54,769 nt of DNA from Gammaproteobacteria bacterium (GTDB lineage Bacteria > Pseudomonadota > Gammaproteobacteria > Pseudomonadales > Azotimanducaceae): contig JAPPAV010000008.1 of the NCBI GenBank assembly GCA_026705345.1, positions 1-54,769 on the forward strand, in the 5' to 3' direction. The notes under the pieces were generated by a model that had not been told where the DNA came from, did not search any database, and saw only the letters and a list, made by a program, of their open reading frames with translations. Below are positions 3,004 to 47,795 of this stretch, in pieces. A program made the position numbers and the translations under genes. Positions within the stretch are counted from its first letter, which is position 1, and each line of letters starts with the position of its first letter.

Positions 3004-3028
3004 CGCCGAGCTGTACGGGCTGGTCGAG

Positions 3029-3055: not shown

Positions 3056-3083
3056 GCGGTGCCCGTCCCGCGATCCGGGCCAG

Positions 3084-6215: not shown

Positions 6216-6295
6216 CCAAAGTTCCGTCGGAGACCGCATGGGCACCGCGCCCGTGGCCCGTATCGGGAGGCTGTACGACTTCCGGTGGCGGGGCG

Positions 6296-6324
6296 CGGGC
6301 GACCACAAGGGTCGCCCCTACGGG
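6296..6324. repeat. GTAGGGG-type hairpin repeat
   Basis: GGGCGACCACAAGGGTCGCC followed by CCTAC, a GGCGACC/GGTCGCC stem with an ACAAG loop and the CCCCTAC edge on the right. It lies between the PhyH gene and the start of the CoA-transferase gene, both on the minus strand. Confidence 0.8.
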
Positions 6325-6344
6325 CCGTTTCCAAAGCTGGTGTC

Positions 6345-7232
6345 TCAGTCGTACAGACCGCGTGGCATCAGGGCGAACTTGCCGTAGTCCGGCCCGCTCT
6401 TCTGCCAGCCGTAGGGTTGCTTGGCCCCCAGCAGGTTGAGGAATCGCGTGTCGTTGGCGTGGCGTTCCCGAACGTCGTCAGGCACGACGTCGCCGTGGCG
6501 TTCCTGGGTCTGGATGTACTGGCGGTTGAAGTACACCGCGAGATTCATGCGGATGCCCGGTACCTGGCGAACGAAGGAGCCGTGCCAGCTGTTGCCATGC
6601 CAGATCACCGCATCACCGGGGTCGATGTCCATCGCGAGGGCATTGGGATTGCCATCGTCGCCGAGACCCATTTCGTCCAGCCGCGGCCCCCGCCCCAGTT
6701 TGTGGCTGCCGGGAACGAGGGCCAACGCCCCACCCTCCCGGCTGTAGGGCGTCAGGGCGTAATTCACGTTCGCGACTTGGGAAAACGCCGCGAACGGTGC
6801 GGGAATGCCGTTGCCGTTGTCCGAGTGCAGCGGCAGCGGCATGCCGCCCGGTCCCTTGAAATGGCAGCCCATGCTCGATAGCAGGCAGCTTTCGCCGAGC
6901 AGGTAGGTGATGAGCGCAAGCGGCTTAGGCTCCATCAGGATCTCTTCGAAAATCTCGTCGTCGTAGAGCAGGTAGGGGACGTACGTCATGCCCGCGAAGT
7001 CCTCGGCCGTCGCGCTCTCGAGATCGATCTCGCGGCCGAGTTGCTTCTCCACCCGGGCGAGGATCGCCGATTTCGCCCGTTCGATCTGCGCCTCGGACAA
7101 GACGCCTTTGACCGTGGTGAAACCGTGGGCCTCCAACTCGAGGATGTTGTCCTTGAGGCCGTGTTCGTCAATCGCGTCGAGCACGCGACGCAGCGCGTCC
7201 GACTCGGCGGGGATGGTCTGGGCCTCTGCCAT
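6345..7232 (-). CDS. phytanoyl-CoA dioxygenase (PhyH) family protein
   Basis: This 295-aa Fe(II)/2-oxoglutarate oxygenase has the expected iron facial triad: His136 and Asp138 in LHSDNG, and a distal His in WHGNSWHGSF (His212 or His217). Arg228 in GIRMNLAVYF would hold 2-oxoglutarate. PGSHKLGRGP before the distal His is a typical PhyH turn. Members hydroxylate CoA esters or small molecules. The gene lies just upstream of, and co-directional with, the CoA-transferase, separated by one hairpin repeat. That makes a shared acyl-CoA pathway possible but unproven. Confidence 0.85.
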   Translation of the reverse strand: MAEAQTIPAESDALRRVLDAIDEHGLKDNILELEAHGFTTVKGVLSEAQIERAKSAILARVEKQLGREIDLESATAEDFAGMTYVPYLLYDDEIFEEILMEPKPLALITYLLGESCLLSSMGCHFKGPGGMPLPLHSDNGNGIPAPFAAFSQVANVNYALTPYSREGGALALVPGSHKLGRGPRLDEMGLGDDGNPNALAMDIDPGDAVIWHGNSWHGSFVRQVPGIRMNLAVYFNRQYIQTQERHGDVVPDDVRERHANDTRFLNLLGAKQPYGWQKSGPDYGKFALMPRGLYD

Positions 7233-31848: not shown

Positions 31849-32247
31849 CTCCCCAAGGCCCGAGCCGACCCCACCCTGCACGCCTTCATCGGCGAACACG
31901 TCGCCGCCGGCGCCGAGGTCTACACCGACGAGGCCAGAGCCTCCATGGGCGTGCCACACCGCCACGCGGTCAAGCACTCGGTCGGCCAGTACGTCGACGG
32001 CCACATCCACACCAACGGCATCGAGTCGTTCTGGTCCATGCTCAAACGGGCCCACAAGGGCGTATTCCACAAGATCAGCCCGAAGCACCTGCAACGATAC
32101 GTCAACGAGTTCGTCGGTCGGCACAACATCCGCGAACTCGATACGATCGACCAGATGGTGAAGGTCGCGCTTGGGCTGATCGCCAAGAAGCTGTCCTACA
32201 AGCGGCTCATCGGGCCGAACGGGTTCGCGTCAGCAGCGCAACACTAG
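31849..32247 (+). pseudogene. 5'-truncated IS1595-type transposase
   Basis: The frame directly after the HNH stop codes for the C-terminal part of an IS1595/ISXO2-like DDE transposase: VYTDEARASMGVPHRHAVKH, then HTNGIESFWSMLKRAHKGVF and LQRYVNEFVGRHNIREL. The second catalytic Asp (YTDEA) and the Glu of NGIES are present, but the N-terminal half with the first Asp and zinc-binding part is missing. No terminal inverted repeats were found. This is a relic, possibly left by an insertion that joined the HNH gene to the ubiquitin-like cluster. Confidence 0.85.
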
Positions 32248-32318: not shown

Positions 32319-32765
32319 ATGTCAAGAGGGCTATCCGAACGTTTGGCGCAGGCGGCAGGACTACAACTGTCGCCCGATGCCGACCAAGACATCGTTCCCG
32401 AGTTCTTGAAAGGCTACGCTCCGGATCCAGAAGAGATGGAACCAGGGAAGATCTACATCGGTTTGCAATGGGGGTGGTCTGGGCACCTGTGCCCGTGCGG
32501 GTGCGGAAAGCCCGTCAACATCAGCCATCAAAGGGAAGGCAGAACGCTTCTCGTCGAAGCCAACAGAGTGACGCTGTGGCCGTCCATCGGACTTCCCAAC
32601 CATGCTTGCCGATCCCACTACTTCATCGTGAACAACAAAGTGGTGTGGGCCGAACCGCTGGAGGAACAGCACACGACCGCTATGCCGGCGGCCAGTTCAC
32701 CATTGCGTTATGGCGGAGAACGTAGCGAGTCACGACCTCGTTTCCGTTTCGGTAGACGCGCCTGA
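32319..32765 (+). CDS. DUF6527-family putative metal-binding protein
   Basis: This 148-aa protein starts at ATG 32319 behind a G-rich sequence. It has the DUF6527 pattern: PGKIYIGLQWGWSGHLCPCG followed by CGKPV (Cys58, 60, 62), TLWPSIG, then ACRSHYFIVNNKVVWAEP (Cys97, His100). The Cys-x-Cys-x-Cys and C-x-x-H arrangement suggests one zinc site. In other genomes this family is a partner of ThiF and ubiquitin-like genes. Here it is convergent to them, and its last 86 bases overlap the 3' end of the ThiF gene. The last 25 residues are basic, read from the ThiF antisense strand and may not be native. Confidence 0.8.
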   Translation: MSRGLSERLAQAAGLQLSPDADQDIVPEFLKGYAPDPEEMEPGKIYIGLQWGWSGHLCPCGCGKPVNISHQREGRTLLVEANRVTLWPSIGLPNHACRSHYFIVNNKVVWAEPLEEQHTTAMPAASSPLRYGGERSESRPRFRFGRRA

Positions 32766-33360
32766 TCTTTTTCCACTTCACGACCGCCATCGCGGCGTTC
32801 ATGGCGTTCAGTTCGGCTGACTGATTGTTGTCTACGGCGGGGTCCGCCGCTGCCGCGTCCAATCCGACGTACTTCTCGAAGTGGTCCCAATGGCCTGGAT
32901 AGCCGACCGTGACTCCGACCACGCCGTCCAGCGCCTGAGAATCCGCTGGCGAGAACAAACCCATCCCGACGTGGACGAGCAGAATGCCTTTGGCCCTGCA
33001 AATCTGGTAGATGCGGCGCTTGACGGGATCTCTGCCAAGGCTCGCGAAAACCGTTGTGCAGTCGGCAAGAAGCCCGTCGGCGTTCTGCGTCGTCAGGCGT
33101 TCGGTGGTGTACGCCACACCATACCGTTTTCCGTGGAAAGCGGCCTTTCGCGACCCCAAATCGCCATGTGCGACAGGTCCTGGAGTTCGACGTACGTTGT
33201 GCTCTTGAAGCGTGTCGCAATCGAAGATGTGCACGTCGCTAACGCCCGCCGACTTGGCCACGAAGTCCAGAATGTATGACCCCGCGCCGCCGACTCCTAC
33301 AATCGCAATCCTCTCCGACCCGAGGCGTTTTCGTTCCAGATCTGTGATTTCACGGGTCAT
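32680..33360 (-). CDS. ThiF/E1-like adenylyltransferase
   Basis: This 226-aa protein has the E1-like Rossmann core: ERIAIVGVGGAGSYILDFVA (nucleotide loop GVGGAG, residues 22-27), VHIFDCDTLQEHNVRRTPG (acidic residue for Mg-ATP plus the N-x-x-R contact) and SLGRDPVKRRIYQICRAKGI then LLVHVGMGL. It would adenylate the C-terminus of a Ubl protein. A dedicated catalytic-cysteine domain is not obvious; Cys residues in LLADCTTV and QICRAKG are candidates. Its start (ATG 33360) overlaps the stop of the next upstream gene in ATGA. It is short for an E1 but usual for the bacterial family that accompanies Multi_ubiq-type genes. Confidence 0.87.
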   Translation of the reverse strand: MTREITDLERKRLGSERIAIVGVGGAGSYILDFVAKSAGVSDVHIFDCDTLQEHNVRRTPGPVAHGDLGSRKAAFHGKRYGVAYTTERLTTQNADGLLADCTTVFASLGRDPVKRRIYQICRAKGILLVHVGMGLFSPADSQALDGVVGVTVGYPGHWDHFEKYVGLDAAAADPAVDNNQSAELNAMNAAMAVVKWKKIRRVYRNGNEVVTRYVLRHNAMVNWPPA

Positions 33361-33962
33361 CGGGATTCCCTCAACCTCTTCGCCTGCAATCTGACTATGC
33401 CGACGTATTTTCCGACCTTCCGGACATGGTTTAGGTAGCCTCCAGGCGGGTCCAGTGACAAGATGAAGATGTCCCGGCTGACGAGATCGATATTCTGGAC
33501 AAGGCCACGCCGCAACTCCGGGACGGTCTTTAGAGACCGTGCCCATTCCAACGGCGTGTAATCTTCGAGAGCCGGGCGCACCCAACCGGCGGGCCGAAGA
33601 ATACGCAATCCCTTGGCCGTGATGAAGGTCATCGGCTTGCCACATGCAGTCCGCGGGTGCTTGCCGTTCCAAACGACCCAATGGCGAGGAGGTCTTGTCA
33701 CAGCATCGTCCGTTGGCCTGATCGGCATAGTCATCGAGCCGTGCAGGAATTCCTGGGACTGGACACCATCAATTGTTCGGGCGGCGACGTACTCGATGTC
33801 GTCCACGGTTAGCCATAAACCGGCATGGGAGTCGCCCCACTTGTCCCCCAGACTCCGCGCAAGCAGCGTTTGAACGGTCGGGGTTAGCCAGTCCGGAGCA
33901 CGCGAAATACGATGGTTGAGGTGCGCAAGCTCGTCGAAACGATGATCATGTGTTGGTGTCAT
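33357..33962 (-). CDS. uncharacterised protein in the E2 position of a ubiquitin-like operon
   Basis: This 201-aa protein lies between the Ubl and E1-like genes, overlapping both in translation-coupled fashion. In related operons that slot holds an E2-like or metal-binding protein. I cannot see a canonical E2 motif (no HPN tripeptide followed by a Cys). There is one suggestive segment, WVVWNGKHPRTACGKPMTFI near residues 110-130, with the only obvious His-Pro/Cys pair. The N-terminal 90 residues include LWLTVDDIEYVAARTIDG. The C-terminal 60 residues are basic (HVRKVGKYVGIVRLQAKRLR). Real gene, function open. Confidence 0.7.
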   Translation of the reverse strand: MTPTHDHRFDELAHLNHRISRAPDWLTPTVQTLLARSLGDKWGDSHAGLWLTVDDIEYVAARTIDGVQSQEFLHGSMTMPIRPTDDAVTRPPRHWVVWNGKHPRTACGKPMTFITAKGLRILRPAGWVRPALEDYTPLEWARSLKTVPELRRGLVQNIDLVSRDIFILSLDPPGGYLNHVRKVGKYVGIVRLQAKRLRESR

Positions 33963-34194
33963 CAACGACAGTGAAGGCGGTGCCGTCCTTGACACTGACT
34001 TCTCCATCTGGGTCGAGTTGCTGCGGAGTGTTCGGATCTCCCGGCCCTAGTGAATCCGTGTAGGTCACGGTGTAGACCACCTCTGGATCGCCACCGAACA
34101 GTTCGACCACTCTCCAGTAGGGGACGGGGTTCATTCCGGGTTTGTGGGGCGTGCCGTTGATCGTGATTTGCGGATAGGGATCCAACTCGACCAT
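33946..34194 (-). CDS. single-domain ubiquitin-like protein (Multi_ubiq-related)
   Basis: This 82-aa protein starts at ATG 34194 behind TAGGAGT. It resembles one repeat of the bacterial multi-ubiquitin family: PQITINGTPHKPGMNPVPYW, RVVELFGGDPEVVYTVTYTD, then a loop and DGEVSVKDGTAFTVVDDTNT at the end. The VYTVTY strand and the VKDGTAFTV strand are the family hallmarks of the beta-grasp fold. Only one domain is present and the C-terminus has no Gly-Gly. It could be processed, or conjugated through another residue. It is the first gene of the unit; the last 17 bases overlap the start of the next gene. Confidence 0.8.
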   Translation of the reverse strand: MVELDPYPQITINGTPHKPGMNPVPYWRVVELFGGDPEVVYTVTYTDSLGPGDPNTPQQLDPDGEVSVKDGTAFTVVDDTNT

Positions 34195-34731: not shown

Positions 34732-35268
34732 CGTTGACACGACTCGAGGATGGTCGCTAGGTTCACCCGCAGCCCATTGAGGGTTGCCGTACGCCGGGAG
34801 CGGACGCTTGATCGTTCGACGACAAGCGCCAGCCGCCCCGGCACCTCTGTCTCGACCGCGACTCGATCCAGAAACGGCGCCGGGTTAATTGTGACCAACG
34901 CCCAGAGACGGTGGTGGGGTTCACCCGCGGTCGTCAACCTTTGTAAGTAATCCCCAAAGGACGAGATAGCGGTTCGGCCGCCTCATTCAGAGTCTTCGAC
35001 ACGCCTAAAGGAACGCTCGGGCTGCAGGTGCGGCGACTGACAACCGCAGCAACGACCCCGGTGCGCCATCGCCATGCTCCAAACCGCCCGTCGCTGTGCG
35101 CCGGAGCGATTCACGCCACCTACGACCGAGTTCCTGCTAGGATTGGCGCACCCTTCCTCGGACTGTCAACTGACCAAGCCATTCGGCGAAGGAACGCCAA
35201 CGTTGAGCAAGACAGGCACCCGACAGGATCACACCGTCCAGACCCAAACCGACGAGTACAGCGGCGGG

Positions 35269-36183
35269 ATGTCCCTCCAACCGGAGAGAGTCTCCTTCGG
35301 CCGCCACGAGTCGTTTCCGCTTCGCTTCGGCTGGATCGCCAAAGGTCTCGAAGCCGTTCGCAGCGACCCGACAGTCTTCGTCCGGGAAGACGCGACCGTG
35401 CGCCTCGGTGTTGGCAAGAACATGGTCACGGCTATCCGTCATTGGTTGCAGGCCGCCCGCCTTATACGGCCTTCCGCTCGCGGGGAGTACGTGGAGACCG
35501 AAATCGGCCGGATCGCATTCGGTGAGGACGGGGATCCATACCTTGAGGACGACGCGACGATTTGGCTTGTCCACTGGCTGCTCGCCGCCAACCCGTCCGT
35601 CGCCACGACCATCTACTGGTTCTTCAATCACTTCCACAAGCCCGCCTTCGCCAGCGACGAGGTGGCTGCCGCGCTCGCTACCTTTGGCGACCGCGAAGTG
35701 TCAGCTCGGATCTCGCGGGCAACACTCCAGCGCGATGTCGCGATGCTCCTGCGCATGTACACCCGCACTCCGGCGGGTACGCGCTTGACTCTCGAGGACG
35801 CCCTTGACTCCCCCTTGTCGCTACTCGATCTCGTCGACCGCGTTGATGCACACCATCACCGGTCTCCGCTCGCCGAGCGCCCAGACCTGCCGCTACCGAC
35901 CTTCGCGTTCGCTGTAGCCGAACTGTTCCGCAACCGAGACGCGCCGCACGTCGGAGTGACCGACCTGATGTACAGCGACACGATCCACTGCGCCCCTGGG
36001 GCCGTGTTCCGCATGACCGAGGAAGGACTCGTTCGCAAGCTTGAGGAACTGTGCAATGCGGCACCGAACGCATACCGCCTCGACAGGACTGCTGGCGTGG
36101 ACCAGCTCTACAGCCAAGGACGCTCCAATCCACTAGCCGTTCTCGCAGATAGTTACGTCGGGAACGGGAGGGCCGCAGCATGA
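35269..36183 (+). CDS. sspB: DUF4007 protein, SspB-like nickase of phosphorothioation
   Basis: This 304-aa protein has the DUF4007 opening: FGRHESFPLRFGWIAKGLEA, then DPTVFVREDATVRLGVGKNM. The core continues with WLVHWLLAANPSVATTIYWF. SspB is the DNA-nicking component of the SspABCD single-strand phosphorothioation system; it nicks one strand so that sulphur can be built into the backbone. The start is uncertain: ATG 35269 puts HESF about 12 residues in, usual for the family, but TTG 35203 has a better GAAGGAA. It is the first gene of an eight-gene plus-strand operon and overlaps sspC in ATGA. Confidence 0.82.
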   Translation: MSLQPERVSFGRHESFPLRFGWIAKGLEAVRSDPTVFVREDATVRLGVGKNMVTAIRHWLQAARLIRPSARGEYVETEIGRIAFGEDGDPYLEDDATIWLVHWLLAANPSVATTIYWFFNHFHKPAFASDEVAAALATFGDREVSARISRATLQRDVAMLLRMYTRTPAGTRLTLEDALDSPLSLLDLVDRVDAHHHRSPLAERPDLPLPTFAFAVAELFRNRDAPHVGVTDLMYSDTIHCAPGAVFRMTEEGLVRKLEELCNAAPNAYRLDRTAGVDQLYSQGRSNPLAVLADSYVGNGRAAA

Positions 36184-39100
36184 CACTCGCGGACCGGATC
36201 ACTGTCAACGCACGCTATACCCGTTCCATCAACGTCGAGCGCGACCGGGGCTCACACACTATCGTCCAAGCCTACCTACCGAGTGCCGCAGGCGCAGAAC
36301 TGCTCCACAGCATTGCCGACACGTTCGGCAACCCGGACACCCCGCGCGCTTGGAGTCTCGTGGGTCCCTATGGCTCCGGCAAGTCCTCGTTCGCTCTGTT
36401 CCTCCACGAACTCCTAGGTACAGGTAGGTCCAGAACCGCGGCCCGAAACGTCCTTGCTCGCGAGAACGGCGACCTCGCGCGACGGTTCGCCCGACAGCGG
36501 CCTTGGTGCCGAGTCGTGTTGTCGGGCAGCGACGAGTCTTTGGCGGAACGGCTTATTGCGGCATTGGACGACGCGGCAACGGGTTATTGGGCAGGAAGGC
36601 AGGGGCGCAGGCCCGCCGTCCTTCATCGGATCCGCCAAGCAAGGGCGAAGGGCCGAATTCCCGACAGCCACCTGCTCGGCCTCGTAGACGACTTGCAGTC
36701 AGCCCTAGAGCAGGCAGGAGCGGGCGGCTTGTTGCTGCTCGTGGACGAGTTGGGCAAGTTCCTCGAATACGAGGGCCGACATGGCGGGTCGGGGATCTTC
36801 CTTCTCCAACAGCTCGCGGAACATGCGTTCCGCGGCCGCCGCGCCAACCTCGTCGTCGTAGTGCTCCTGCACCAAGCGCTGGACCTCTATGCCCGTGGTC
36901 TCGCCGAGAAACTGCGGAACGACTGGACCAAAATACAGGGACGCTTTCAGAGCGTCTCCTTCATTGAGCCGCCGGAACAGACCCTGCGAATCCTGGCTAC
37001 CGCATTCTCAAACACGCTTACCGCCACGCAGTCCAAGGAAGTGCGCCGCCGGACCGCACGGCTCGCGAAATCCCTCAACGCGGCTGGAGCACTCCCCGCA
37101 GCTCTGGATGTGGACGCAGCCGCCGCCCTCTTCGCAGCCTGCTATCCCGTCCATCCTGTGACGCTCCTACTGCTGCCCGATCTCTGCCAGCGCTTCGCGC
37201 AGAACGAGCGGACCTTGTTCAGCTACCTCGGAAGCCGCGAACCGCATGGCTTCCGTGACGTTCTCGCGTCGCTCCGCAAGCCAGGCGATTGGCTCCACCC
37301 TGCCTCGGTGTACGACTACTTCGTACGTAACCAACCTGTGGTGCTTTCGGATCCACTCACGTACCGGCGCTGGACTGAAGTGATCACCGCAGTGGAACGC
37401 GCCGACCGGCTTGACACACCCGCGAACCAACGCCATGCCAGCGGCTCCCCGTCATCGCTTGCCAAGGCAGTCGGCCTCCTCAACCTAGTTTCGCGTGCTG
37501 GCGGGTTGAAGGCCTCGGAATCCGTGCTCCAACTGCTCTTCCCGCGTGGCCCGTCCTTCCAGGTCGCCCTGGACCGACTGCTGGAGGGCTCGGTAGTCCA
37601 GTACCGAGGATTCAGCGGCGAATATCGCGTCTGGCAGGGCACCGATTTCGACGTCGAAGAACGGACCGCGGCGGAGGCGCAGAAACTCGGCCCATTCAAT
37701 CTTGCGGAGATCCTGCACGGGCGCCTCGAAAGCCGTGCCATCGTGGCGCGGCGCCACTCTGCCGAGACTGGCACACTTCGCTATTTCGACGTCACTTTCG
37801 CGGACCCCGAGTCGCGCCGCATCGCCAGTGGCGAAGCCCTGACCGCACCACGCATCGTGTTTTTCTTGGCAGAGCGCGGTGACCACGAAACCGACTTCCA
37901 TGCAATGCGTCGCCGTACGGTCGCGTCCGGCGAAGTTTGGGCGCTTCACCGCGAGGGCGCCGCGGTTAGAGCCGCGGTCGTCGACGTCCTCGCCCTCGAG
38001 GCGGTCCGCCGAGACGCCCAAGAGCTAGCCTCGGACCCCGTTGCCTCGCGGGAAGTCCGCGAGCGCCTCGACGCTGCCCGTTCCGCAGAACGTGCGGTGG
38101 TGCGACGGCTCATCGGCGATCCGGCCAGTTGCGAGTGGTACAGCAACGACTGCCTCCTCCACGTCGTCGATCGTCGCGGCCTGCAGCGCGTGTTGTCGGA
38201 TGTCATGGACCACGTCTACAACAAGACCCCCGTGATCCGCAACGAACTCGTTAACCGCAACCGCTTGTCATCGCAGGCCGCAGCCGCGCGGAACAAGCTA
38301 TTCAAGTGCATGCTCGAACAGGAGCTCTATCCAGACCTCGGAATAGAGAAGTATCCGCCGGAGCGGGCGATCTACCGCTCGTTGCTGCTAGCAGGGCGGC
38401 TGCATGTCGAAACCCCGGAGGGATGGGCGTTCGTCGCACCGGGAGATGACGATCCTCTAAGGCTCCGTTCGGTTTGGTCTCGCATCGACGAACTCTTGGC
38501 CGCGTCCGAAGCAGAGCCGATTCCGTTCAGCAAGTTGGCCGACGCTCTGGCCGAGCCACCAGTGGGCCTGCGGCGCGGTGTGTTTCCTGTGCTCTTTCTG
38601 CACTACTATCTCCTGCATCGGTACGAGATCGCGTTCTACGACGAGGGCATCTACTCACCGACGCTGACCACCGGCCACCTGGACCGGCTGATGCGGAGGC
38701 CCGACCTGTTCGCTTTCCAGCGGTTTCGCATCGAGGGCGTCCGGGCGGACCTGTTTGCCGAATACGGTCGCGCCCTGTTCGATCGTGAGGTGGACAGCGC
38801 GGACCCGCTGCCGCTAGCCCGCGCACTCGTTCAGTTCGTCGGCGGGCTGGATGACTACACGCGCAAGACGCGCGCGCTTTCTCCTCAGACACTTCGCGTT
38901 CGAGAGGCGCTGTTCTTCTCGAAGTCGCCGCAAAGGCTCCTCTTCGAGGCGCTGCCACAGGCCTGCGGGTACAACCTTGACAGTGACCTGTCCGGATTTG
39001 CGGCGAAACTGCAAGGCGCACTACGCGAACTCAAGCACGCCCAGTCCGAACTGGTCGATGCCTTACGCAGAGCCTTCGCCGATGCCTTCAGTCTCGATCT

Positions 39101-39656
39101 GGACGTGTCGCTGCGCGACCTAAGGGAGATCCTCCGCGGTCGCTCACAGGGCCTCGACCGCTACACGATCGACGCCGAGGGCCTCCGGAGCTTCGTACGC
39201 CGGCTCGCCGACCCGGGGCCGACCGACGACGACAGGTGGTTCGCCGGCATCCTGTTGTTCCTGGGACGAAAGCCGACCGCGAAGTGGACCGACCAAGACC
39301 GCGCAACCGGCGAGTACCGCCTAGCGCAGTTCGCGGCCCGAATGCTCGACCTTGAGAAGCTAAGGCTTCACTTCGACACTGCGGCCCGGCGTGACACCCC
39401 GCAGGAGACCGTTCTCGTAAGAGTCGTGAGCGAAGCCCACGGAGAGATCGAGCAGGTCGTCCTGCTCAACGAGGACAAAGACAGGGCGGTCAAGGCTCCC
39501 CTTGGGAAATTTCTGCGGATGCTCGCTGAGGTCGGCGATAGCGATCTGCAACTCGCCCTCATCACCCGCTTGACGGGCAAATTCCTCGCCGACTACCACG
39601 AGGCACGTCTGTCCAGAAAAAGGAGCCACGAGCATGAACTCCGACAAGTCCAGTAG
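36180..39656 (+). CDS. sspC: large P-loop ATPase, SspC-like
   Basis: This 1158-aa protein has a Walker A, GPYGSGKS (residues 62-69), and a Walker B, LLLLVDELGKFLEY (from about residue 184). The remaining 900 residues are largely helical and charged and contain no other motif I can name. Its place between DUF4007 and PAPS-reductase-like genes is that of SspC, the ATPase required for phosphorothioation with SspB and SspD. The large size fits a motor or scaffold ATPase. Its last 23 bases overlap the sspD start. Confidence 0.8.
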   Translation: MTLADRITVNARYTRSINVERDRGSHTIVQAYLPSAAGAELLHSIADTFGNPDTPRAWSLVGPYGSGKSSFALFLHELLGTGRSRTAARNVLARENGDLARRFARQRPWCRVVLSGSDESLAERLIAALDDAATGYWAGRQGRRPAVLHRIRQARAKGRIPDSHLLGLVDDLQSALEQAGAGGLLLLVDELGKFLEYEGRHGGSGIFLLQQLAEHAFRGRRANLVVVVLLHQALDLYARGLAEKLRNDWTKIQGRFQSVSFIEPPEQTLRILATAFSNTLTATQSKEVRRRTARLAKSLNAAGALPAALDVDAAAALFAACYPVHPVTLLLLPDLCQRFAQNERTLFSYLGSREPHGFRDVLASLRKPGDWLHPASVYDYFVRNQPVVLSDPLTYRRWTEVITAVERADRLDTPANQRHASGSPSSLAKAVGLLNLVSRAGGLKASESVLQLLFPRGPSFQVALDRLLEGSVVQYRGFSGEYRVWQGTDFDVEERTAAEAQKLGPFNLAEILHGRLESRAIVARRHSAETGTLRYFDVTFADPESRRIASGEALTAPRIVFFLAERGDHETDFHAMRRRTVASGEVWALHREGAAVRAAVVDVLALEAVRRDAQELASDPVASREVRERLDAARSAERAVVRRLIGDPASCEWYSNDCLLHVVDRRGLQRVLSDVMDHVYNKTPVIRNELVNRNRLSSQAAAARNKLFKCMLEQELYPDLGIEKYPPERAIYRSLLLAGRLHVETPEGWAFVAPGDDDPLRLRSVWSRIDELLAASEAEPIPFSKLADALAEPPVGLRRGVFPVLFLHYYLLHRYEIAFYDEGIYSPTLTTGHLDRLMRRPDLFAFQRFRIEGVRADLFAEYGRALFDREVDSADPLPLARALVQFVGGLDDYTRKTRALSPQTLRVREALFFSKSPQRLLFEALPQACGYNLDSDLSGFAAKLQGALRELKHAQSELVDALRRAFADAFSLDLDVSLRDLREILRGRSQGLDRYTIDAEGLRSFVRRLADPGPTDDDRWFAGILLFLGRKPTAKWTDQDRATGEYRLAQFAARMLDLEKLRLHFDTAARRDTPQETVLVRVVSEAHGEIEQVVLLNEDKDRAVKAPLGKFLRMLAEVGDSDLQLALITRLTGKFLADYHEARLSRKRSHEHELRQVQ

Positions 39657-40449
39657 CGCGGCACATCCAGTGACAGTTAGGGAGACGCGCCACATTCTCG
39701 GCCTTTCAGGTGGCAAGGACAGCGCCGCACTCGCCATCTACCTAAAGCAGCAGGACCGCGCGAAGCGCATCGAGTACTTCTTCTGCGACACGGGGGCCGA
39801 GTTGCCGGAAGTCTACGAGTACTTAGACCGACTTGAGGACTACCTCGACAAGCCGATTGTCCGGCTGAGCAGCGGGCGCGACTTCGACCATCATCTAAAG
39901 CGGTTCAACAACTTCCTCCCGGCTCCGCACGCTCGGTGGTGCACTCGGGTAATGAAGTTGGAACCGCTCGAAGCCTACGTCGGCGACGACCCATGCGTGA
40001 GTTACATTGGCATCCGCGCCGATGAACAGCGGGGTGGCTACATCAGCCACAAGCCGAACATCAAAGCCGCGTACCCGTTCGTCGAGGACGGCATCGTTCG
40101 GGCGGACGTGTTCCGGATCCTAGAGGACACGGTGGGGGTTCCTGAGTACTACAGGTGGCGCAGCCGGTCCGGCTGCTACTTCTGCTTCTTCCAGCGTCGC
40201 GACGAATGGCTCGGCCTGGCCGACAACCATGAAGAGCTCTTCGAACGTGCGAAGCAGTACGAGAAGATCGATCCGCAGACGGGCAAGCGGTTCACTTGGG
40301 TTCAAGGGGCGACGCTCGACGAGGTTCTCGCGCAGCGGGACCAGATCGAACGGACCGCAGCAGCGAACAGGAAGAACGACGGAGTGGCCACCTGGCAGAA
40401 TGCCATGCTCGACGACGACGAGCGGACCTGCTTGATCTGCACGCTGTAG
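39634..40449 (+). CDS. sspD: PAPS-reductase-like ATP pyrophosphatase, SspD/DndC type
   Basis: This 271-aa protein has the PP-loop SGGKDS (residues 25-30), FCDTGAELPEVYEYLDRL, and WCTRVMKLEPLEAYVG typical of the phosphoadenosine phosphosulfate reductase family. Cysteines in ARWCTRV, GCYFCFFQRRDEW and RTCLICTL could bind an iron-sulfur cluster, as in DndC. It should activate the DNA phosphate and accept sulphur from a cysteine desulfurase. No desulfurase (SspA) is encoded nearby, so a housekeeping IscS-type enzyme would have to serve. AGGAG precedes the start. Confidence 0.87.
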   Translation: MNSDKSSSAAHPVTVRETRHILGLSGGKDSAALAIYLKQQDRAKRIEYFFCDTGAELPEVYEYLDRLEDYLDKPIVRLSSGRDFDHHLKRFNNFLPAPHARWCTRVMKLEPLEAYVGDDPCVSYIGIRADEQRGGYISHKPNIKAAYPFVEDGIVRADVFRILEDTVGVPEYYRWRSRSGCYFCFFQRRDEWLGLADNHEELFERAKQYEKIDPQTGKRFTWVQGATLDEVLAQRDQIERTAAANRKNDGVATWQNAMLDDDERTCLICTL

Positions 40450-40479
40450 ACCCAGAACGACAAGGATTCCCGACCCCCT

Positions 40480-42654
40480 ATGCCCGTACAGGAGTCGCGG
40501 CGAAATGCACCGCCGCAAACGTTGAAGGACGCGCTTTCCCCGGCTGACTCCCTATACGTGCTTCCGAAGGATCCGCTGTTCTCGCACGTTCTGGTTCCAG
40601 CGCTCGGCTCTTCGACGTCCGTCGACATAATGATGGGCTATTTCGCAAGCAGTTCGTTCGCTGCGGTCGCGCCGGGGCTTGCGACGTTTCTCCGGAATGC
40701 GCGCGCACCGCTGCGAGTCGTCGTTAGCCCCTTCCTTACCGACACCGACTTCGATGCCGTCACGCAGGACGAGTCGTATCTTGCGGACCTCGCAAGGCAA
40801 CTCCTAGTAGACGAAACGCCGACCGAACAGGATCTCGCACGCCATACCCTAGAGTGTTTCGCCTGGCTGCTCGTCCAAGGCAGGCTGGTTCTTAAAATAG
40901 CGGTCATGCGCCACGCCTTGTTCCATCCCAAGGTGTGGCTCTTCCGGGACGCGGACAGCTCTGCAGCGCTCCACGGGTCCACGAACCTGACCAAGTCGGG
41001 CTTGGTGCTCAACCGCGAGCAGCTGACACTGTCGCGCGACTGGACCGGCGAGGAGTCCACCTACGCGATCATACGGCTCCGTACGGAGTTCGACGACCTT
41101 TGGGCTGGCGGCGACGACGACTGTTGCGTCTTGGATCTACCTGAAGCCGTCGCAAGGAATGTCGTGGAAACCTACAAGACCGACACGATGCCCGACGAGG
41201 CCCGTCTCCAAACCTTGTGGAACAGAGCACACAAGCTGCCCGAGCCGGTTGCCCGGGAAGAGTTCTCCCGGCCTGCGGCGATGTCCATTCCGTCGCACCT
41301 AAACTACGAATCGGGAGACTTCGCGCACCAAGGCGAAGCCGTGCGCGCTTGGGAAGCCGCCGGACGGCGCGGAATACTTGAAATGGCCACAGGATCCGGC
41401 AAGACAATCACAGCCATGATCTGTGCTGCACGACTGCAAGACCAGCGGAATGGCTTAATTGTTGTCGTTTCCGCCCCTTACAGACCCTTGATTGAGCAAT
41501 GGTGCGATGAGATCCGCCAGTTCGGGGTGGATCCCGTCAACCTCACGGCCGTCGGTGGTCCCCGCGCCCGGGCTAGAGAGATCGCGCAGGCCGGTCGGCG
41601 CATGCGTACCGGCTTGTCTCGGGCAGAGGTCCTCGTGCTAAGCAACGACACCCTCTGCACCGATGACTTCAACCAGCGTATGGGTGCTCTTTCCGCCGAA
41701 AAGCTCCTGGTCGCCGATGAATGCCACAACCTCGGTGCAGACTCCTTCGCTACCAACCCGCCCGAGTATTTCGACTACCGCATGGGCCTCTCAGCAACGC
41801 CGGAACGCCAGTACGACGACGCGGGCACTCAGGCCTTGCGCGCGTATTTCGGAGACACATGCTTCACGTTCACGCTTGAGCAGGCAATCGGCAACTGCCT
41901 GACAGAGTACGACTACCACGTCCATTTCGTCGAACTGTCCCCATCCGAGATGGAGGAGTGGAACGATCTCACACGGCAGATTGGAACACAGGCGTGGCGC
42001 CTAGAGGCGAAGGCGGACAGCCCTTATCTGGACAACCTGCTTCGTCGACGCCGACTGGTCCTCGAAACCGCGAGCAGCAAGATCGATGCCCTCGCGTCGC
42101 TAATCGACGCACAGAACCCCAGAGACCTGCGTCACGCCCTTATCTACGCCACCGACAAAGATCCCGAGCAACTAGAAGCCGTCAACGGTCTTCTGTCGGC
42201 CCGCCGTCTCCTTTTCCACCAGTTGACGCAGGACGAGACTGCCAGCCGACCTCGAACGAACCGCATCCTCTCCTCGTTCCAAGAGGGCGTAATCCAGATT
42301 CTCACCGCCAAACGCGTTCTCGACGAGGGCGTCAACATTCCGCAGATCAGGCTCGCCTACCTGTTGGCCAGTACCACTGTGCGTAGGCAATGGGTGCAGC
42401 GACGTGGCCGTCTGCTCCGTACGTGCAGCGTGATCGGCAAAACCCATGCGGACATTCACGATCTCGTTGTCCTACCGCCACTGGCGACCGTCTCGGATCA
42501 GCCGCTTGATCGCGACGCGCGCCGCCTAGTACGCTCTGAACTTGATCGTGTTTGGGAATTCGCGCGGTTGAGCAGGAACGGTCCGGCACCCGACGGCCCC
42601 TACCGCGCCGTCGAACATCTCCAAAAACTGGCCAACGACATGGAGCCCGGGTGA
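40480..42654 (+). CDS. PLD-like nuclease fused to superfamily 2 helicase
   Basis: This 724-aa protein has an N-terminal phospholipase-D-like half with FHPKVWLFRDADSSAALHGS then TNLTKSG (H-x-K plus downstream residues), and a helicase half: EMATGSGKTITA (motif I), VADECHNLGAD (motif II, DECH), GLSATPERQ (motif III) and WVQRRGRLLR (motif VI). It would track on and cut DNA. It occupies the place of the first gene of the SspFGH restriction module. I do not assign a letter because I am unsure of the exact SspF/G/H order. Its stop overlaps the next start by one base. Confidence 0.83.
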   Translation: MPVQESRRNAPPQTLKDALSPADSLYVLPKDPLFSHVLVPALGSSTSVDIMMGYFASSSFAAVAPGLATFLRNARAPLRVVVSPFLTDTDFDAVTQDESYLADLARQLLVDETPTEQDLARHTLECFAWLLVQGRLVLKIAVMRHALFHPKVWLFRDADSSAALHGSTNLTKSGLVLNREQLTLSRDWTGEESTYAIIRLRTEFDDLWAGGDDDCCVLDLPEAVARNVVETYKTDTMPDEARLQTLWNRAHKLPEPVAREEFSRPAAMSIPSHLNYESGDFAHQGEAVRAWEAAGRRGILEMATGSGKTITAMICAARLQDQRNGLIVVVSAPYRPLIEQWCDEIRQFGVDPVNLTAVGGPRARAREIAQAGRRMRTGLSRAEVLVLSNDTLCTDDFNQRMGALSAEKLLVADECHNLGADSFATNPPEYFDYRMGLSATPERQYDDAGTQALRAYFGDTCFTFTLEQAIGNCLTEYDYHVHFVELSPSEMEEWNDLTRQIGTQAWRLEAKADSPYLDNLLRRRRLVLETASSKIDALASLIDAQNPRDLRHALIYATDKDPEQLEAVNGLLSARRLLFHQLTQDETASRPRTNRILSSFQEGVIQILTAKRVLDEGVNIPQIRLAYLLASTTVRRQWVQRRGRLLRTCSVIGKTHADIHDLVVLPPLATVSDQPLDRDARRLVRSELDRVWEFARLSRNGPAPDGPYRAVEHLQKLANDMEPG

Positions 42655-42881
42655 TGGCCTACAACGACCGCAAGATTCTCGGCGTCCTCCTCGGCGAACT
42701 CGCCGCCGTTCCCGACCGGTACGAAGACTACCGCGAAGACATGACGCACCTTGTCACAGAAGTGCTCAATCTTGAGCAGAAGCATGCGATTGGGCGTATC
42801 GACATAGTCAAGCGGATTGGAGATCAAGTGAACACTGTAGGCATGTCCCTATACAAGTCCCGGCGGGAAGACGGGCCGTGA
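42654..42881 (+). CDS. 75-aa DNA-modification-system-associated small protein
   Basis: This helical, charged protein (MAYNDRKILGVLLGELAAVP, then MTHLVTEVLNLEQKHAIGRI) is translated from an ATG overlapping the helicase stop (TGATG), and its own stop overlaps the GTG of the DndD-like gene (GTGA). Tight coupling on both sides argues for a subunit made in fixed ratio to its neighbours. No motif is visible. It may correspond to the small component of the SspFGH module. Confidence 0.72.
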   Translation: MAYNDRKILGVLLGELAAVPDRYEDYREDMTHLVTEVLNLEQKHAIGRIDIVKRIGDQVNTVGMSLYKSRREDGP

Positions 42882-44995
42882 AGCTCCTGCGAGCCCATAT
42901 CGAGAACTTCCGGCTGCTACGCGATCTAACCATCGAGTTCGCCACCGATCGTACCCGCAACGTCACGGTGATTCGCGCCGCGAACGAGAGCGGCAAGACC
43001 ACATTGCTAACGGCCTTGCAGTGGGGTCTGTTCGGCGACTCGGCGCTGCCGAATCTCGGCGCGGACTATCGTCTGAGTCCCCTCGACATCACCGGCGACT
43101 CGTCGGTCACCGTGCCCATATCTGTCGAAATTGACTACGAGGTCCCAACCCGGGCGGGCCAAGTCCAGCAGTACCGAATCATACGTTCGGCACTTGAGAC
43201 TCCCCGTACAGGTGGCACTTGGGAGCGTCACCGGGCGAAAGTTCGCCTAATCAACTTCACGCCTGCCGGTACAACGCCGCTCGACAATCCCGAAGCCCAC
43301 ATCCGACCGCATCTTCCCAACGACTTGCGGGAGGTCTTCTTTACCGACGGCGACCGTGCCTTGAGTTTCATCGAGGGCAGCCGAGCAGACCAGATGAAGC
43401 GCGTCGCGGGCGCTATCCAGTCGCTGCTGGGGTTTGAAACGGTGGAGAACGCCCGCGAGCATGCACAGCAGGTCGGTTCGGCGCTAAACCGACGCGTGCG
43501 CAAGGATCTCGGTAGCCGCGACGAACTGCAGAAGATCGCGGACAAGCTGGCATCCTTGGAACAGCGGCTTCCGCTCCTCGAAGCCGACATCAGGGACTCA
43601 AAAGAAGCCCTAGACCGGCTCGAGGAACTCGAACACCAAGCGGACAAGACGCTCACCGAAGCTCTACGCCAGGGCAACAAGGACGAGCTCATTCGGGGGC
43701 TTGCAGATACCAAACGCAAACGCGAGGTAGCCCAGCGGGAGGCCGCACAAGCCGCCCGCGACCACGCCAACCTCTTTAGGAGCGAACTTCTCGCGAAGCA
43801 TCTACTCGCCACCCCGTTCGACAAGGCGAGGGCGCTCCTCGAGACGCTTCACAACCAGCGGCAGATCCCGAGCCAGACGATACCCGTGCTCGAGGATCGC
43901 CTAGACTTCGCTTCGTGCATTTGCGGAGAGAGTCTCGACGACGCCAGTCCCGAGGGACGGCGTCGACGTGGACACATCGCTGGACTGATCGAGGAAAGCC
44001 GCGCGGCCGACGAGAACCGCGAAAAGCTGACCGCCCTGTATTACGGTTCGCAGGATCTCCTCAAGCCACCGCTCGAACGTATTTGGAAGGACGAATACGC
44101 CGATGTGTTCCAGCGCCGGGTCGCTGCCAACAAGCGCACAAAGGACTACGGCGAACAGGAGGCAGAAATCGACGCTCAGATCGCCCGGCTGCCCGACATC
44201 GACATCCGGCAACTGCGGGCGGCACGCGACCGCTACCGTTCGCAGGCCAAGGAGGAACAGGCCAGACATTTCCGGGCCACGAACAACCGCGACACCGTCC
44301 GCGAAGAGATGGCCGACGCCGAATCTCAACGCGAAAAGCAGCTGTCCCGCGACCAACAGGGTATGAAGCTCGCCGCCGAACTGCAGGTCGCCAAGGATCT
44401 CCAACACATCCTAGCAAAGACCCTCGACACCATGCGCACGCGCGAACTCGAGCAGGTCAGCGAACGCATGAACGCGCTATTTCTCGACATGATCGGCGCT
44501 GATGCAGCGGAAAAGGCAATCATCCGTCGTGCGGCCATCACCCCCGATTTCCGCATCGTAGTTTCGGGTCCGTACGACCAGCCCTTGGATCCCTCCCAGG
44601 ACCTTAACGGTGCCTCGCGACGCGCACTCACGATCGCATTCATTCTCGCGTTGGCCCAGGTAAGCGAGGTTGAAGCCCCCAACGTCATCGACACGCCGCT
44701 CGGCATGATGAGTGGCTACGTCAAACAAGCCGTCTTGCAGCTGGCTTCGCAACATAGTGGGCAGCTCGTTCTGATGTTGACCCATTCGGAGATAAGCGAG
44801 TGCGAAGACATACTCGATCGCCGAGCCGGACGGATCTACACGCTCACCAATCCCGCCCACTACCCCAACATCCTAGTCAACGATCCGGGCACCGCCGACT
44901 CAAGACTGCTAGTTTGCGACTGCAACCACCGTCGGCACTGCTCTGTTTGCGAGCGGCGGGAATCCCCCGAACGATTGGACGGGGAGGCGGCATAG
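42878..44995 (+). CDS. DndD-like SMC-type ATPase
   Basis: This 705-aa protein starts at GTG. It has a Walker A (ANESGKTT, residues 35-42), FFTDGDRALSFIEG, long coiled coils on both sides of a Cys-rich turn FASCICGESLDD (zinc-hook-like), and the C-terminal Walker B and ABC region NVIDTPLGMMSGYVK with LMLTHSEISECED. Resemblance to DndD and SMC/Rad50 ATPases is clear. The C-terminal tail is unusual: VCDCNHRRHCSVCERR, a compact Cys/His cluster that could bind zinc. Its place suggests a component of the restriction arm rather than modification. Confidence 0.85.
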   Translation: MKLLRAHIENFRLLRDLTIEFATDRTRNVTVIRAANESGKTTLLTALQWGLFGDSALPNLGADYRLSPLDITGDSSVTVPISVEIDYEVPTRAGQVQQYRIIRSALETPRTGGTWERHRAKVRLINFTPAGTTPLDNPEAHIRPHLPNDLREVFFTDGDRALSFIEGSRADQMKRVAGAIQSLLGFETVENAREHAQQVGSALNRRVRKDLGSRDELQKIADKLASLEQRLPLLEADIRDSKEALDRLEELEHQADKTLTEALRQGNKDELIRGLADTKRKREVAQREAAQAARDHANLFRSELLAKHLLATPFDKARALLETLHNQRQIPSQTIPVLEDRLDFASCICGESLDDASPEGRRRRGHIAGLIEESRAADENREKLTALYYGSQDLLKPPLERIWKDEYADVFQRRVAANKRTKDYGEQEAEIDAQIARLPDIDIRQLRAARDRYRSQAKEEQARHFRATNNRDTVREEMADAESQREKQLSRDQQGMKLAAELQVAKDLQHILAKTLDTMRTRELEQVSERMNALFLDMIGADAAEKAIIRRAAITPDFRIVVSGPYDQPLDPSQDLNGASRRALTIAFILALAQVSEVEAPNVIDTPLGMMSGYVKQAVLQLASQHSGQLVLMLTHSEISECEDILDRRAGRIYTLTNPAHYPNILVNDPGTADSRLLVCDCNHRRHCSVCERRESPERLDGEAA

Positions 44996-45454
44996 ATGAA
45001 CGAGTTCGGCGGCGTCGACATAAATCTCCCCGAGGAGTATCGCGAGTACTTCCACGCGTACTGCCTGACGCGTAGCGATGGAACACGCAACAATCCAGAG
45101 GGAAGTCCTTTTCCCCGCATGGTAGACATGTGGTTCCTTGCCGTTTGCATCGCAGCAAAAGAAGGCCTGTCGCCCGATTTTGACCGCAACGGCAAGACCT
45201 ACAAGGCCATCGAAGGAGCAGTATTCGGCAGCGACCCTTGGCGCTCGAACGCGCTTATGCTGTTGGCCATCGCACACACGGGCGACGCCGCCGTCGCCAG
45301 CGATCCCCACGAGATGATGCGAGTGGCCAACGCTTACGCACTCGCTGGCCTGCCACGCCTCATAGGCATCCTCAACGAGCGGGGAGAGGAGGCCGCTCTA
45401 GACTACCTCTCCGACTTCGTCGAGGTGGCCTGCCGCAGTCGGGCCTCTCGTTGA
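44996..45454 (+). CDS. conserved 152-aa protein of the phosphorothioation cassette
   Basis: The start codon follows the DndD-like stop with no gap (TAGATG). Sequence: NLPEEYREYFHAYCLTRSDG, PFPRMVDMWFLAVCIAAKEG, AVFGSDPWRSNALMLLAIAH. It is mostly helical. I recognise the pattern as one that recurs beside phosphorothioation genes but not a defined domain; it could be a DndE-like or regulatory subunit. It ends 10 bases before the SspE-like gene. Confidence 0.72.
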   Translation: MNEFGGVDINLPEEYREYFHAYCLTRSDGTRNNPEGSPFPRMVDMWFLAVCIAAKEGLSPDFDRNGKTYKAIEGAVFGSDPWRSNALMLLAIAHTGDAAVASDPHEMMRVANAYALAGLPRLIGILNERGEEAALDYLSDFVEVACRSRASR

Positions 45455-45464
45455 GGACGGCGAT

Positions 45465-47795
45465 ATGGTCGGTCCCAAGAACCTGTTCGAAGCCAAGGCA
45501 GAGAGCCTTGCTGCCACGATGGGCAGCCACATGGCTACAGCCGGTTTCATGGTCCCCGAATACCAGCGCACATACGATTGGAAGCGGGAGAACATAGAAC
45601 GGCTTCTCGAGGATTGTCTCGCCGGTTTCGACAACTGCTGGCGCACAACCGAGTCAGCCTCCTACACCTTTCTGGGCACGATCATCCTCGTCAATGACAA
45701 GAACTCCAAGGAGCACTCATTCGACGGCACCTCCTTAGCTGTCGTCGACGGACAGCAGCGTCTCACCACGCTCAGTATCATGTGTTGCGTCCTGGTCGAG
45801 GCACTGATCCGCCATCAGCACGATGGCGATTCGCTCAAGGAAGCCGCTAGACAGTGGCTGAAGGAGGAAGTGAACTTCCACATGGGTGCCCTGTTCGATT
45901 GCGTGATTGGGCAGCTCCGGGAACGGGGCACAAACTATCCTTTTCCGCGGATCGTCCGACATACCGACACGCGAGGCCCCAATCCCCGCGATGCGGAATA
46001 CCGGTCTGTGGTGGCCCGGTTCCTGCAGGATTTCGCGAGGTTCTTCAAGAACGACACACCTAAGTTCGAACCCACGCGGCAGCCCGACGTCAACGAGTCG
46101 ATGCGACTATTCAGCAACTATGACTTCATCAAGGAACAGCTCGACCTGGCTCTCCTGCGGGTTGGTGATGACGGTTTCAAGCTCGACTTTGACCGCAGCG
46201 ATCGCAATGAATTCCATCGGCGCAGCGTGAAAGCACTGTTCGAGAAGCTCACCACGGATGCCAACTCATCCAACAAGATCCTCGCGGATCTTCGCAACAC
46301 GCCCTCTGTTGCACCGCTCGTCCGATTAATCGCGTTCGCATCCTACATCACAAAATGCGTGATTCTGACGCGTGTCGAGACTGAAGACGACAGCTACGCC
46401 TTCGACATCTTCGACGCTTTGAACACGACCGGCGAGCCCCTGACTGCGATCGAGACATTTCGTCCTAGGGTCATCCAGTTCGAGAACCAACGCGACGGAT
46501 TCCATGGTTCCGAGTCGCAGCAACACCTAGACATGCTGTCTACACACCTCGACGAAGTCTTCCCCAAGACCGAAGACAGGCAGAAGGCTACGAAGGAGCT
46601 TCTCGTTTCGTTCGCCTTGTATCTCAACGGTCGGAAGTTGGGGCTTCCTCTAAAGGCCCAGCGTTCCTATCTGCGCAGTAGATTCGACAAATACTCGGAA
46701 GACGCCCAAGGCGAGCACCACCGCCGACGATTTGTTAAGGCTCTCGCCGACGTTGCGGAGTTCAGAAACCGCTACTGGGCGCCAGGCGACATTCGCACCT
46801 TGGACGCCGTCCATACGCCAGATGCTTCTGACACCATCAAACTATGTTTCTCATTCATTGGGGCAATGAACACGAGCCTCACGCTTCCGTTGCTCGCACG
46901 ATATTGGGTACGGTTCCGGAATAAGGAGATTCCCGAGTCCGAGTTCCTTGAAACAGCCAAGGCGGTCACGGCATACATCGTTCTGCGGCGCGCCGTTACC
47001 GGCGGCACCGAAGGGATTGACTCAGAATTCCGACGCATGATGCACGATCGTCCCAAAACAGAGGGGGATCCCTTTTGCGCCGGTGAGGACCAGAAGAACA
47101 CGCTGCCGTCTTCCTCGACCCTGAAGGCTGAAATCCGCCAACGATACTTGAAGCTCAAGTCTTGCGATGCCACCGACAGGACTGCGTGGGTCAGCCGGGC
47201 TCGCTCAAAACCGCTCGCGTACCACTCTCGTCCACTCTGCCGGTTCCTCATATTGTCCGCGTCCCACAACGCCATGCCGGACAATGCCAAACCTGGACTG
47301 CTCACGCGATGTGGTGTCGTGCCTAGCGAGGCACTCGACTACCTCAGCTTCGCCAGGTGGAAAAGCGAGCTCTATGCCACTGTAGAACACGTAGCACCGG
47401 ACTCGAACACCAAAGGCCTATGGGATTCAACCATATACGGCGACGACACAAAGCACTCTCTCGGGAACCTTGTCCTCCTGCCACATGCCGAGAATACCAT
47501 GATCGGCGATGCCGAATGGGCCAAGAAGAAGCTGTTCTACCGTGCTTTTGCCGCCGAGACCGAGACCAAAAAACGTGATGCCCTTCAAAAGGCAAAGACC
47601 AATGGTCTTTCGTTCAGCAAGAAGACTATGGACCTGCTCGACGGCAACCAACAACTGCCCATGCTGAAGTCTCTCAATGCTGTGTCCGATTGGGATCGAA
47701 CGTTCATCGAGCAGCGCTCGCAACGCTTGCTCGAGCTCGCATGGGATCAGATATGGCCGTGGTTGGACCAGACGGGTGTCTCAAAGGGACAATAG
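45465..47795 (+). CDS. sspE: DUF262-DUF1524 (GmrSD-type) restriction enzyme, SspE-like
   Basis: This 776-aa protein has an N-terminal DUF262 nucleotide-hydrolase half (MVPEYQRTYDWKRENIERLL, then FLGTIILVND and VVDGQQRLTTL, residues about 30-103) and a C-terminal DUF1524 HNH nuclease (VEHVAPDS at about residue 640, then HSLGNLVLLPHAENTMIGDA with AEWAKKK). SspE has this architecture and cuts phage DNA after sensing host phosphorothioates; GmrSD uses it against modified cytosines. Adjacent to sspBCD, an SspE-type role is the likelier one. It is the last gene of the operon. Confidence 0.82.
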   Translation: MVGPKNLFEAKAESLAATMGSHMATAGFMVPEYQRTYDWKRENIERLLEDCLAGFDNCWRTTESASYTFLGTIILVNDKNSKEHSFDGTSLAVVDGQQRLTTLSIMCCVLVEALIRHQHDGDSLKEAARQWLKEEVNFHMGALFDCVIGQLRERGTNYPFPRIVRHTDTRGPNPRDAEYRSVVARFLQDFARFFKNDTPKFEPTRQPDVNESMRLFSNYDFIKEQLDLALLRVGDDGFKLDFDRSDRNEFHRRSVKALFEKLTTDANSSNKILADLRNTPSVAPLVRLIAFASYITKCVILTRVETEDDSYAFDIFDALNTTGEPLTAIETFRPRVIQFENQRDGFHGSESQQHLDMLSTHLDEVFPKTEDRQKATKELLVSFALYLNGRKLGLPLKAQRSYLRSRFDKYSEDAQGEHHRRRFVKALADVAEFRNRYWAPGDIRTLDAVHTPDASDTIKLCFSFIGAMNTSLTLPLLARYWVRFRNKEIPESEFLETAKAVTAYIVLRRAVTGGTEGIDSEFRRMMHDRPKTEGDPFCAGEDQKNTLPSSSTLKAEIRQRYLKLKSCDATDRTAWVSRARSKPLAYHSRPLCRFLILSASHNAMPDNAKPGLLTRCGVVPSEALDYLSFARWKSELYATVEHVAPDSNTKGLWDSTIYGDDTKHSLGNLVLLPHAENTMIGDAEWAKKKLFYRAFAAETETKKRDALQKAKTNGLSFSKKTMDLLDGNQQLPMLKSLNAVSDWDRTFIEQRSQRLLELAWDQIWPWLDQTGVSKGQ

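Follow-up and report, generated by a model that had tools for sequence, protein, structure and literature searches.

What kind of system is encoded by a compact cluster of four genes for a ubiquitin-like (Ubl) protein, a 201-aa protein, an E1-like enzyme and a DUF6527 protein, and which of its features set it apart from its relatives? The cluster lies in the window, by which we mean the whole 54,769-nucleotide stretch of DNA analysed, and a preliminary description made from the sequence alone had suggested that it may be an unusual or reduced version of a bacterial ubiquitin-like system. The four open reading frames named there were confirmed by ORF analysis, Pfam, profile matches and codon scores, the last of which favoured the annotated frame for all four genes, and the statements that the Ubl has a single domain without diglycine and that the genes occupy two strands were correct as description. 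Feature positions are given in Table 1.

Table 1 Features of the cluster and its immediate neighbour in the window.
Feature	Coordinates	Strand	Length	Basis
IS1595-type transposase, truncated (C-terminal part)	31850-32247	+		PF12762 1.7e-17 over 31945-32244; phmmer 1.3e-28
DUF6527 protein	32319-32765	+	148 aa	Pfam PF20137
E1-like ThiF adenylyltransferase	33360-32680	-	226 aa	Pfam PF00899
Standalone DUF6791 protein	33962-33357	-	201 aa	Pfam PF20590
Ubl, single Multi_ubiq beta-grasp domain	34194-33946	-	82 aa	ORF and profile matches

The genes are tightly packed. The Ubl, which ends in FTVVDDTNT with Thr as its last residue and for which an alternative start at 34242 (giving 98 aa) is possible, overlaps the DUF6791 gene by 17 nt. 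Three codons before the DUF6791 ATG, at 33971–33969, stands a CTG where relatives have ATG. The E1 ATG overlaps the DUF6791 stop in the sequence ATGA, E1 and DUF6527 are convergent with 3′ ends overlapping by 86 nt, and the stop of the transposase fragment lies ~70 nt upstream of DUF6527.

Matches to Pfam exceeded the curated cut-offs for the DUF6791 protein (5e-8), the E1 (8e-11) and the DUF6527 protein (1e-15), and fell just under the cut-off of 24.5 for the Ubl (Multi_ubiq PF14452, E 1.4e-4, 22.4 bits). The 201-aa protein, previously left as of unknown class, is therefore a DUF6791 protein, and fused DUF6791-ThiF proteins carry its homologue as their N-terminal half. Profiles built from ten plasmid relatives (nine for DUF6527) with the window left out, using the canonical last-domain profile for the Ubl, scored 35, 31, 142 and 79 bits on the window Ubl, DUF6791, E1 and DUF6527 proteins, so that family profiles match all four genes and the assignment to Ubl/E1 clusters of the Multi_ubiq kind holds. 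The Ubl and E1 folds are assigned by sequence homology: a Ubl profile (21 rows, window first) matches residues 145–222 of the solved chain 9cd2, named ‘ZDHYS365 multi-ubiquitin domain protein’ in the PDB, to its last residue (E 1.5e-24), the window E1 alone gave a best E of 0.0028 against solved chains, and the window Ubl alone gave no significant match (best E 0.43). Neither the DUF6791 nor the DUF6527 protein, each searched alone, reached a significant E-value against solved chains, nor did a DUF6791 profile match any. The AlphaFold2 model of DUF6791 (pLDDT 68) had no Foldseek match at E 0.001 and the DUF6527 model (pLDDT 76.5) no significant fold match. DUF6791 may be called E2-like only from its position before the E1 and from an H-x9-C motif of the family that resembles the active-site spacing of E2s. 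The Cys/His pattern of DUF6527 is of metal-binding type, with HLCPCGCG...CRSHY kept in the window.

Departures from the usual arrangement were assessed against 71 genome loci that the window E1 retrieved from one-genome-per-species contigs, by a scan for exact 8-residue patterns of that E1 which could miss remote split relatives, and ten plasmid loci that we picked from 122 and 114 plasmid records, the window E1 matching 122 such records at E up to 0.01. DUF6791 and E1 share one frame in 68 of the 71 genome loci and all ten plasmid loci, the genome exceptions being two frameshifted copies (L090, L091) and a fragment (L093). DUF6527 lies on the E1 strand in 70/71 genome loci, no DUF6527 being found beside the remaining one, fragment L093. 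In all ten plasmid loci a multi-ubiquitin gene, a fused DUF6791-ThiF gene and DUF6527 (annotated in nine, found by profile in L011) run in one direction, and an opposite-strand DUF6527 was seen in none of the 81 loci. The Ubl and the fused gene were both seen in 75 loci, and in 74 of these (64/65 genome, 10/10 plasmid) they overlap by exactly 26 nt. Where a Ubl stands beside a fused enzyme, it is short enough for a single domain (≤125 aa) in 7/65 genome and 2/10 plasmid loci; such short Ubls occur in Actinomycetota, Acidobacteriota, Bacteroidota, Pseudomonadota and Campylobacterota. Distinct Ubl C-termini end in Ser in 52 of 55 cases and in Ala in two, the other being the Thr of the window. 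A single Ubl domain and a missing diglycine are thus ordinary for such operons, and what is truly unusual in the window is that E1 and DUF6791 are two separate genes and that DUF6527 is present on the strand opposite and convergent to E1. The window DUF6791 also carries an insert and has lost the conserved linker F-x-Y-x-D-T. The word ‘unusual’ therefore stands for the split and the convergent DUF6527, not for the single domain or the missing diglycine, and ‘reduced’ is not the best word for an arrangement in which DUF6791 has extra sequence and which occurs in three other genomes.

These other genomes emerged from a search of 200 host-family genomes with the window E1, which gave a match in 12, the window's own included. 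The window layout was found in L173 (genome G1065) and L174 (G967), both of the same genus, and in L175 (G1076), from another genus of the family. G1001 has a split DUF6791 and E1 with DUF6527 on the same strand (L172) as well as a second locus (L181); four genomes (G1027, G985, G983 and G1016; L176–L179) have both domains in a single frame, two (G943 and G1049; L180 and L183) have frames as long as a fused gene, with E1 as the one domain detected, and L182 of G1103 encodes a general MoeB/ThiF-like protein. Within the host genus, 6 of 16 genomes have an E1 match, three split and three fused. Pfam recognised DUF6791 in L173, L174 and L175 (1.4e-15, 1.6e-15 and 4e-12), and profiles made without the window found DUF6791, E1 and DUF6527 in each. 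As for the Ubls, Pfam detected no Multi_ubiq at E up to 0.01 in the L173 and L174 proteins, which scored 33 and 50 bits with profiles made without the window, and that of L175 is weak (13 bits, E 0.0047, with such a profile), being a 61-aa frame missing the N-terminal part.

Several details of organisation and sequence are common to the split loci. The stop–start junction of DUF6791 and E1 reads GTGA in L173 and, as in the window, ATGA in L174, the first E1 ATG of L175 lying 11 nt past the DUF6791 stop; the 3′ ends of DUF6527 and E1 overlap by 42, 36 and 74 nt in L173, L174 and L175. L174 keeps ATG at the usual DUF6791 start. All four share the DUF6791 insert with conserved Trp residues, their Ubl frames all end in Thr (six other family-locus Ubls end in Ser), and their E1s read S/T-P-G-P where 55 distinct fused rows have Ala for the last Pro. 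A tree of E1 sequences places the four split E1s on one side of a branch with SH-aLRT 85, which is moderate support for a single origin, and the group adjoins L172 and the fused L179 (SH-aLRT 90); in an earlier tree without the new loci, the window had the longest branch, at 2.7 changes per column. The four split loci probably form one lineage, and the split variant is real and recurrent, so far in one bacterial family within the collections searched.

Searches of wider collections returned no further split loci. The DUF6791 protein query matched 1 of 274 genomes of the class sample, the window's own, and the E1 query 4 of 293 of the order sample (own, two fused and one frameshifted), with no other split locus. 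A DUF6527 query matched 19 of 398 genomes of the phylum sample, and the regions fetched around these matches contained fused clusters, E1s of another type or, by profile, no E1 at all, and no split locus. Among plasmids the window DUF6791 query gave no match and that of L174 gave 48 records, 15 of them among the matches listed, all within ThiF genes. The E1 query had no match in phages, five matches on four viral contigs were all fused, and a DNA-level search of Escherichia coli genomes found no match. Literature searches located no publication on DUF6527 by name and no paper on the split form, the primary papers on Bub (bacterial ubiquitination-like) systems being outside their scope.

On this evidence, the reading we favour, with rather more confidence than doubt, is that the cluster is a split and diverged version of the multi-ubiquitin operon of the DUF6791 type, that is, of type 6e of Iyer and colleagues, and probably of what is now called Bub. 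Homology, gene order, stop–start coupling, convergence, recurrence and, for one pair of loci, selection were observed directly; from these we infer the catalytic steps and the biological role. The E1 would bind ATP and adenylate the single Ubl at its C-terminus. The stand-alone DUF6791 protein would take over the function that the N-terminal domain has in fused enzymes and pass the Ubl on, and DUF6527, a small Cys/His-rich protein, might trim or remove the Ubl or help to choose targets. The split arrangement may mean that the Ubl is attached by different chemistry.

How far such chemistry is plausible depends on the residues kept and lost, which were counted over 85 fused rows, many of them near-identical (a 95% filter applied to a somewhat smaller set left 55 distinct rows), with seven partial or frameshifted loci omitted (L025, L038, L087, L090, L091, L093 and L096). 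In the E1, D205, D207, N213, R216 and K232 are present in 85/85 fused rows. D273, an Asp in 82/85, is Gly in the window, L173 and L174, and is kept in five fused family rows and L172. D294, an Asp in all 85 rows, is changed in two split loci (His in the window) and is His, His and Ser in three fused host-family loci, and the Asn of the HN..R motif is lost in L173 and L174. These changes make adenylation by the split-lineage E1s doubtful, and since D273 is also changed in 3/85 fused rows, its loss alone is no proof of inactivity. The leading alternative, to which we assign an appreciable minority chance, is that the split lineage has ceased to conjugate, E1 and DUF6791 forming an inactive or purely binding complex with the Ubl as a sensor or scaffold. 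The losses of D273, D294 and the HN..R Asn speak for this view, but GxGG, both nucleotide-strand Asp residues, Arg58, Lys72 and the block N-x-Q...ELNA.NA..AV..WK are kept in all four split E1s, which argues against it.

Turning to DUF6791 within the favoured reading of a split conjugation operon, the Cys of the H-x9-C motif is present in 80/85 fused rows and in one of ten host-family rows (L176). The four split loci have R, H, H and I in its place (the Arg being that of the window), L172 has Y, and the fused L177, L178, L179 and L180 have N, N, F and V; a nearby Cys lies three residues on in the window and one residue on in L173. Because the residue is lost in the fused L177–L180 and the partly split L172 too, its loss is widespread in the host family and does not single out the split loci. 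By contrast with the Cys, Ser105 (fused numbering; Ser169 in the window) is found in 85/85 fused and 10/10 host-family rows, a smaller alignment having left the Ser of L172 unaligned, and may be the better candidate for a shared role; His65 is found in 85/85 and 9/10. As the Cys is absent from nine of ten family loci and Ser169 is kept in every row, transfer in the host family probably uses no thioester at that Cys. A bolder version, which we put forward only tentatively, is a cysteine-free conjugation in which a family DUF6791 lacking the Cys, in the split lineage also freed from the E1, would hand over the Thr-ended Ubl either through an ester formed with the invariant Ser or directly from the adenylate, and convergent, overlapping transcription would let DUF6527 be regulated from the opposite strand. 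The Cys is dispensable in fused cousins as well, an observation that counts neither against the split variant nor for an ester step in particular.

A third possibility is that the cluster is a decaying remnant of a fused DUF6791-E1 operon in which a gene broke, an inversion took place close to an insertion sequence and active-site residues were lost. The residue changes in E1, the truncated IS1595 fragment adjoining DUF6527, the CTG in place of the usual DUF6791 ATG, the existence of frameshifted fused-gene copies (L090, L091 and L096) and the incomplete Ubl frame of L175 would all fit such a history. However, the four frames have stayed open despite high divergence: the window cluster has no stop in 657 codons, whereas 300 simulated runs with 0.3 neutral changes per site averaged 10 stops, each run having at least one. 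The same layout in three other genomes, the stop–start coupling in three of four split loci and the DUF6791 insert common to them also weigh against decay, as does the comparison of L173 with L174, in which dN was below dS for Ubl (0.29/1.8), DUF6791 (0.50/2.2), E1 (0.37/4.3) and DUF6527 (0.30/4.1), a result that rests on the NG86 method, with saturated dS, and on one pair of loci. Given one probable lineage of split loci and purifying selection in the two closest of them, simple decay is unlikely.

The idea that an IS1595-type transposon carries the cluster as a passenger is very improbable and was not supported when examined: an IS1595-like transposase frame does lie beside DUF6527 in three of four split loci (window, L173 and L175) and in none of 101 other loci scanned (including nine host-family stretches, L172 and L176–L183), but the L175 element has its own inverted ends (5715–6984) with the cluster outside them, the transposases of L173 and L175 share 37% identity, no cluster-bracketing ends were found in L173 or the window, and no IS1595-like frame occurs in the 10.5 kb fetched around L174. 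At the DNA level, the window fragment and the L175 element are 66% identical over 209 bases.

The surroundings of the cluster in the window, at 30.9–52.2 kb, include an HNH protein, SspBCDE with Pbe genes and an AbiJ-like protein. Third-position GC is 0.63–0.71 in the four cluster genes versus 0.59–0.81 in these neighbours; CobS and CobT have 0.92 and 0.87, and the gene at 2319–3821 has 0.75. The SspBCDE-Pbe/AbiJ-like neighbourhood is compatible with a defence island, and the link to an antiphage role is one of association. Six frames between the Ubl and SspB had no Pfam match, so that this interval showed no HTH/ImmA-IrrE or WYL regulator of the kind present in four plasmid relatives.

Together, the split lineage and its fused cousins offer a natural experiment for studying a ubiquitin-like pathway that is still poorly understood. 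The retention of the Ser and of the E1 nucleotide site while the Cys (and D273 in three of four split loci) was dropped points to the residues that bear the chemistry, and the two enzyme halves, fused in nearly all relatives, can be purified and tested apart.

Among described systems, the closest counterpart is type 6e (Iyer, Burroughs and Aravind 2006, PMC1779556), in which, in the passages drawn on here, the Ubl has one to three beta-grasp repeats and the non-JAB domain before the E1 is left without assignment. Going by these passages, type 6e and the window have in common a Ubl, a ThiF/E1, a non-JAB domain before the E1 (in a 6e subset) and a small metal-binding protein; in type 6e the non-JAB domain is fused to the E1, whereas the window has this domain as a gene of its own, with the metal-binding gene on the other strand. 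DUF6527 is likely to be the metal-binding protein of type 6e, with the difference that the signature given in those passages runs C..C..H..C and that of DUF6527 C..C..C..H. Among the NCBI models of PRK06153 (NF004802–NF004806), the fused L013 is a member by NF004802 (690 bits, above cut-off), and the window E1 matches the same models, but the separate E1 and DUF6791 proteins score far below the cut-off of 352 of the best model, NF004805, at 140 and 21 bits. The Bil operon (BilABCD), as presented in the portion of PMC11354881 used here, likewise combines a Ubl and an E1, but BilD has a Cys domain and the window E1 is a single 226-aa ThiF domain without one. The cluster proteins had no JAB/JAMM peptidase match, and two JAB-family matches in the host genome lie on other contigs (C133 and C40). 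With Bub operons (Gong 2025 and Ye 2026, as cited in the part of PMC13373217 consulted), the Ubl fold is common, through the match of the Ubl profile to 9cd2. Fused relatives match Citrobacter BubCD (9ea5) with their E1 part only (profile positions 170–303), and by this comparison BubCD looks like a more distant type.

An IS1595-type transposase frame adjoins the DUF6527 gene in three of the four split loci, in which DUF6791 and E1 are encoded separately, as against 0 of 101 other loci in our scan. DUF6527 accompanies more than one type of E1, since it also occurs near longer E1-like proteins with, by eye, the look of JAB-E1 fusions, either adjacent to them (L119-L122) or about 1.4 kb away (L124). 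The host-family genome G1001 carries, in addition to a split cluster, a single frame (L181) in which an E1-like part and a DUF6527 part are directly joined, an apparent E1-DUF6527 fusion.

Positions of features in the window and in related loci
Locus	Position	Strand	Feature
Window	31850-32247		IS1595-type transposase frame adjoining DUF6527
L173	3331-4278		IS1595-type transposase frame adjoining DUF6527
L175	5911-6801		IS1595-type transposase frame adjoining DUF6527
L181	3376-4410	minus	E1-like and DUF6527 parts, single frame
L136	4271-6248		Fused operon with single Ubl, and second, convergent Ubl gene
Window	35074-47795	plus	SspB, SspC, SspD, PbeA, PbeC and SspE homologues
Window	50813-52198	minus	Protein with a Pfam match to AbiJ_NTD3 (1e-35)

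Among the relatives with DUF6791 and ThiF/E1 in one frame, nine (L017, L019, L037, L056, L088 and L177-L180) lack the DUF6791 Cys of the H-x9-C motif; three of these, L017, L019 and L056, come from Actinomycetota and have short Ubls of single-domain size. The fused locus L136 (IMG/VR 3300027566_000342) has an additional, convergent Ubl gene, whose product ends in NNA and not NRS, and its contig bears a TFB-like frame of archaeal look, as judged by eye.

In the window, the gene of the AbiJ_NTD3 protein is a possible additional abortive-infection gene, and the Ssp and Pbe homologues adjoining the cluster form a putative phosphorothioation-type defence island.
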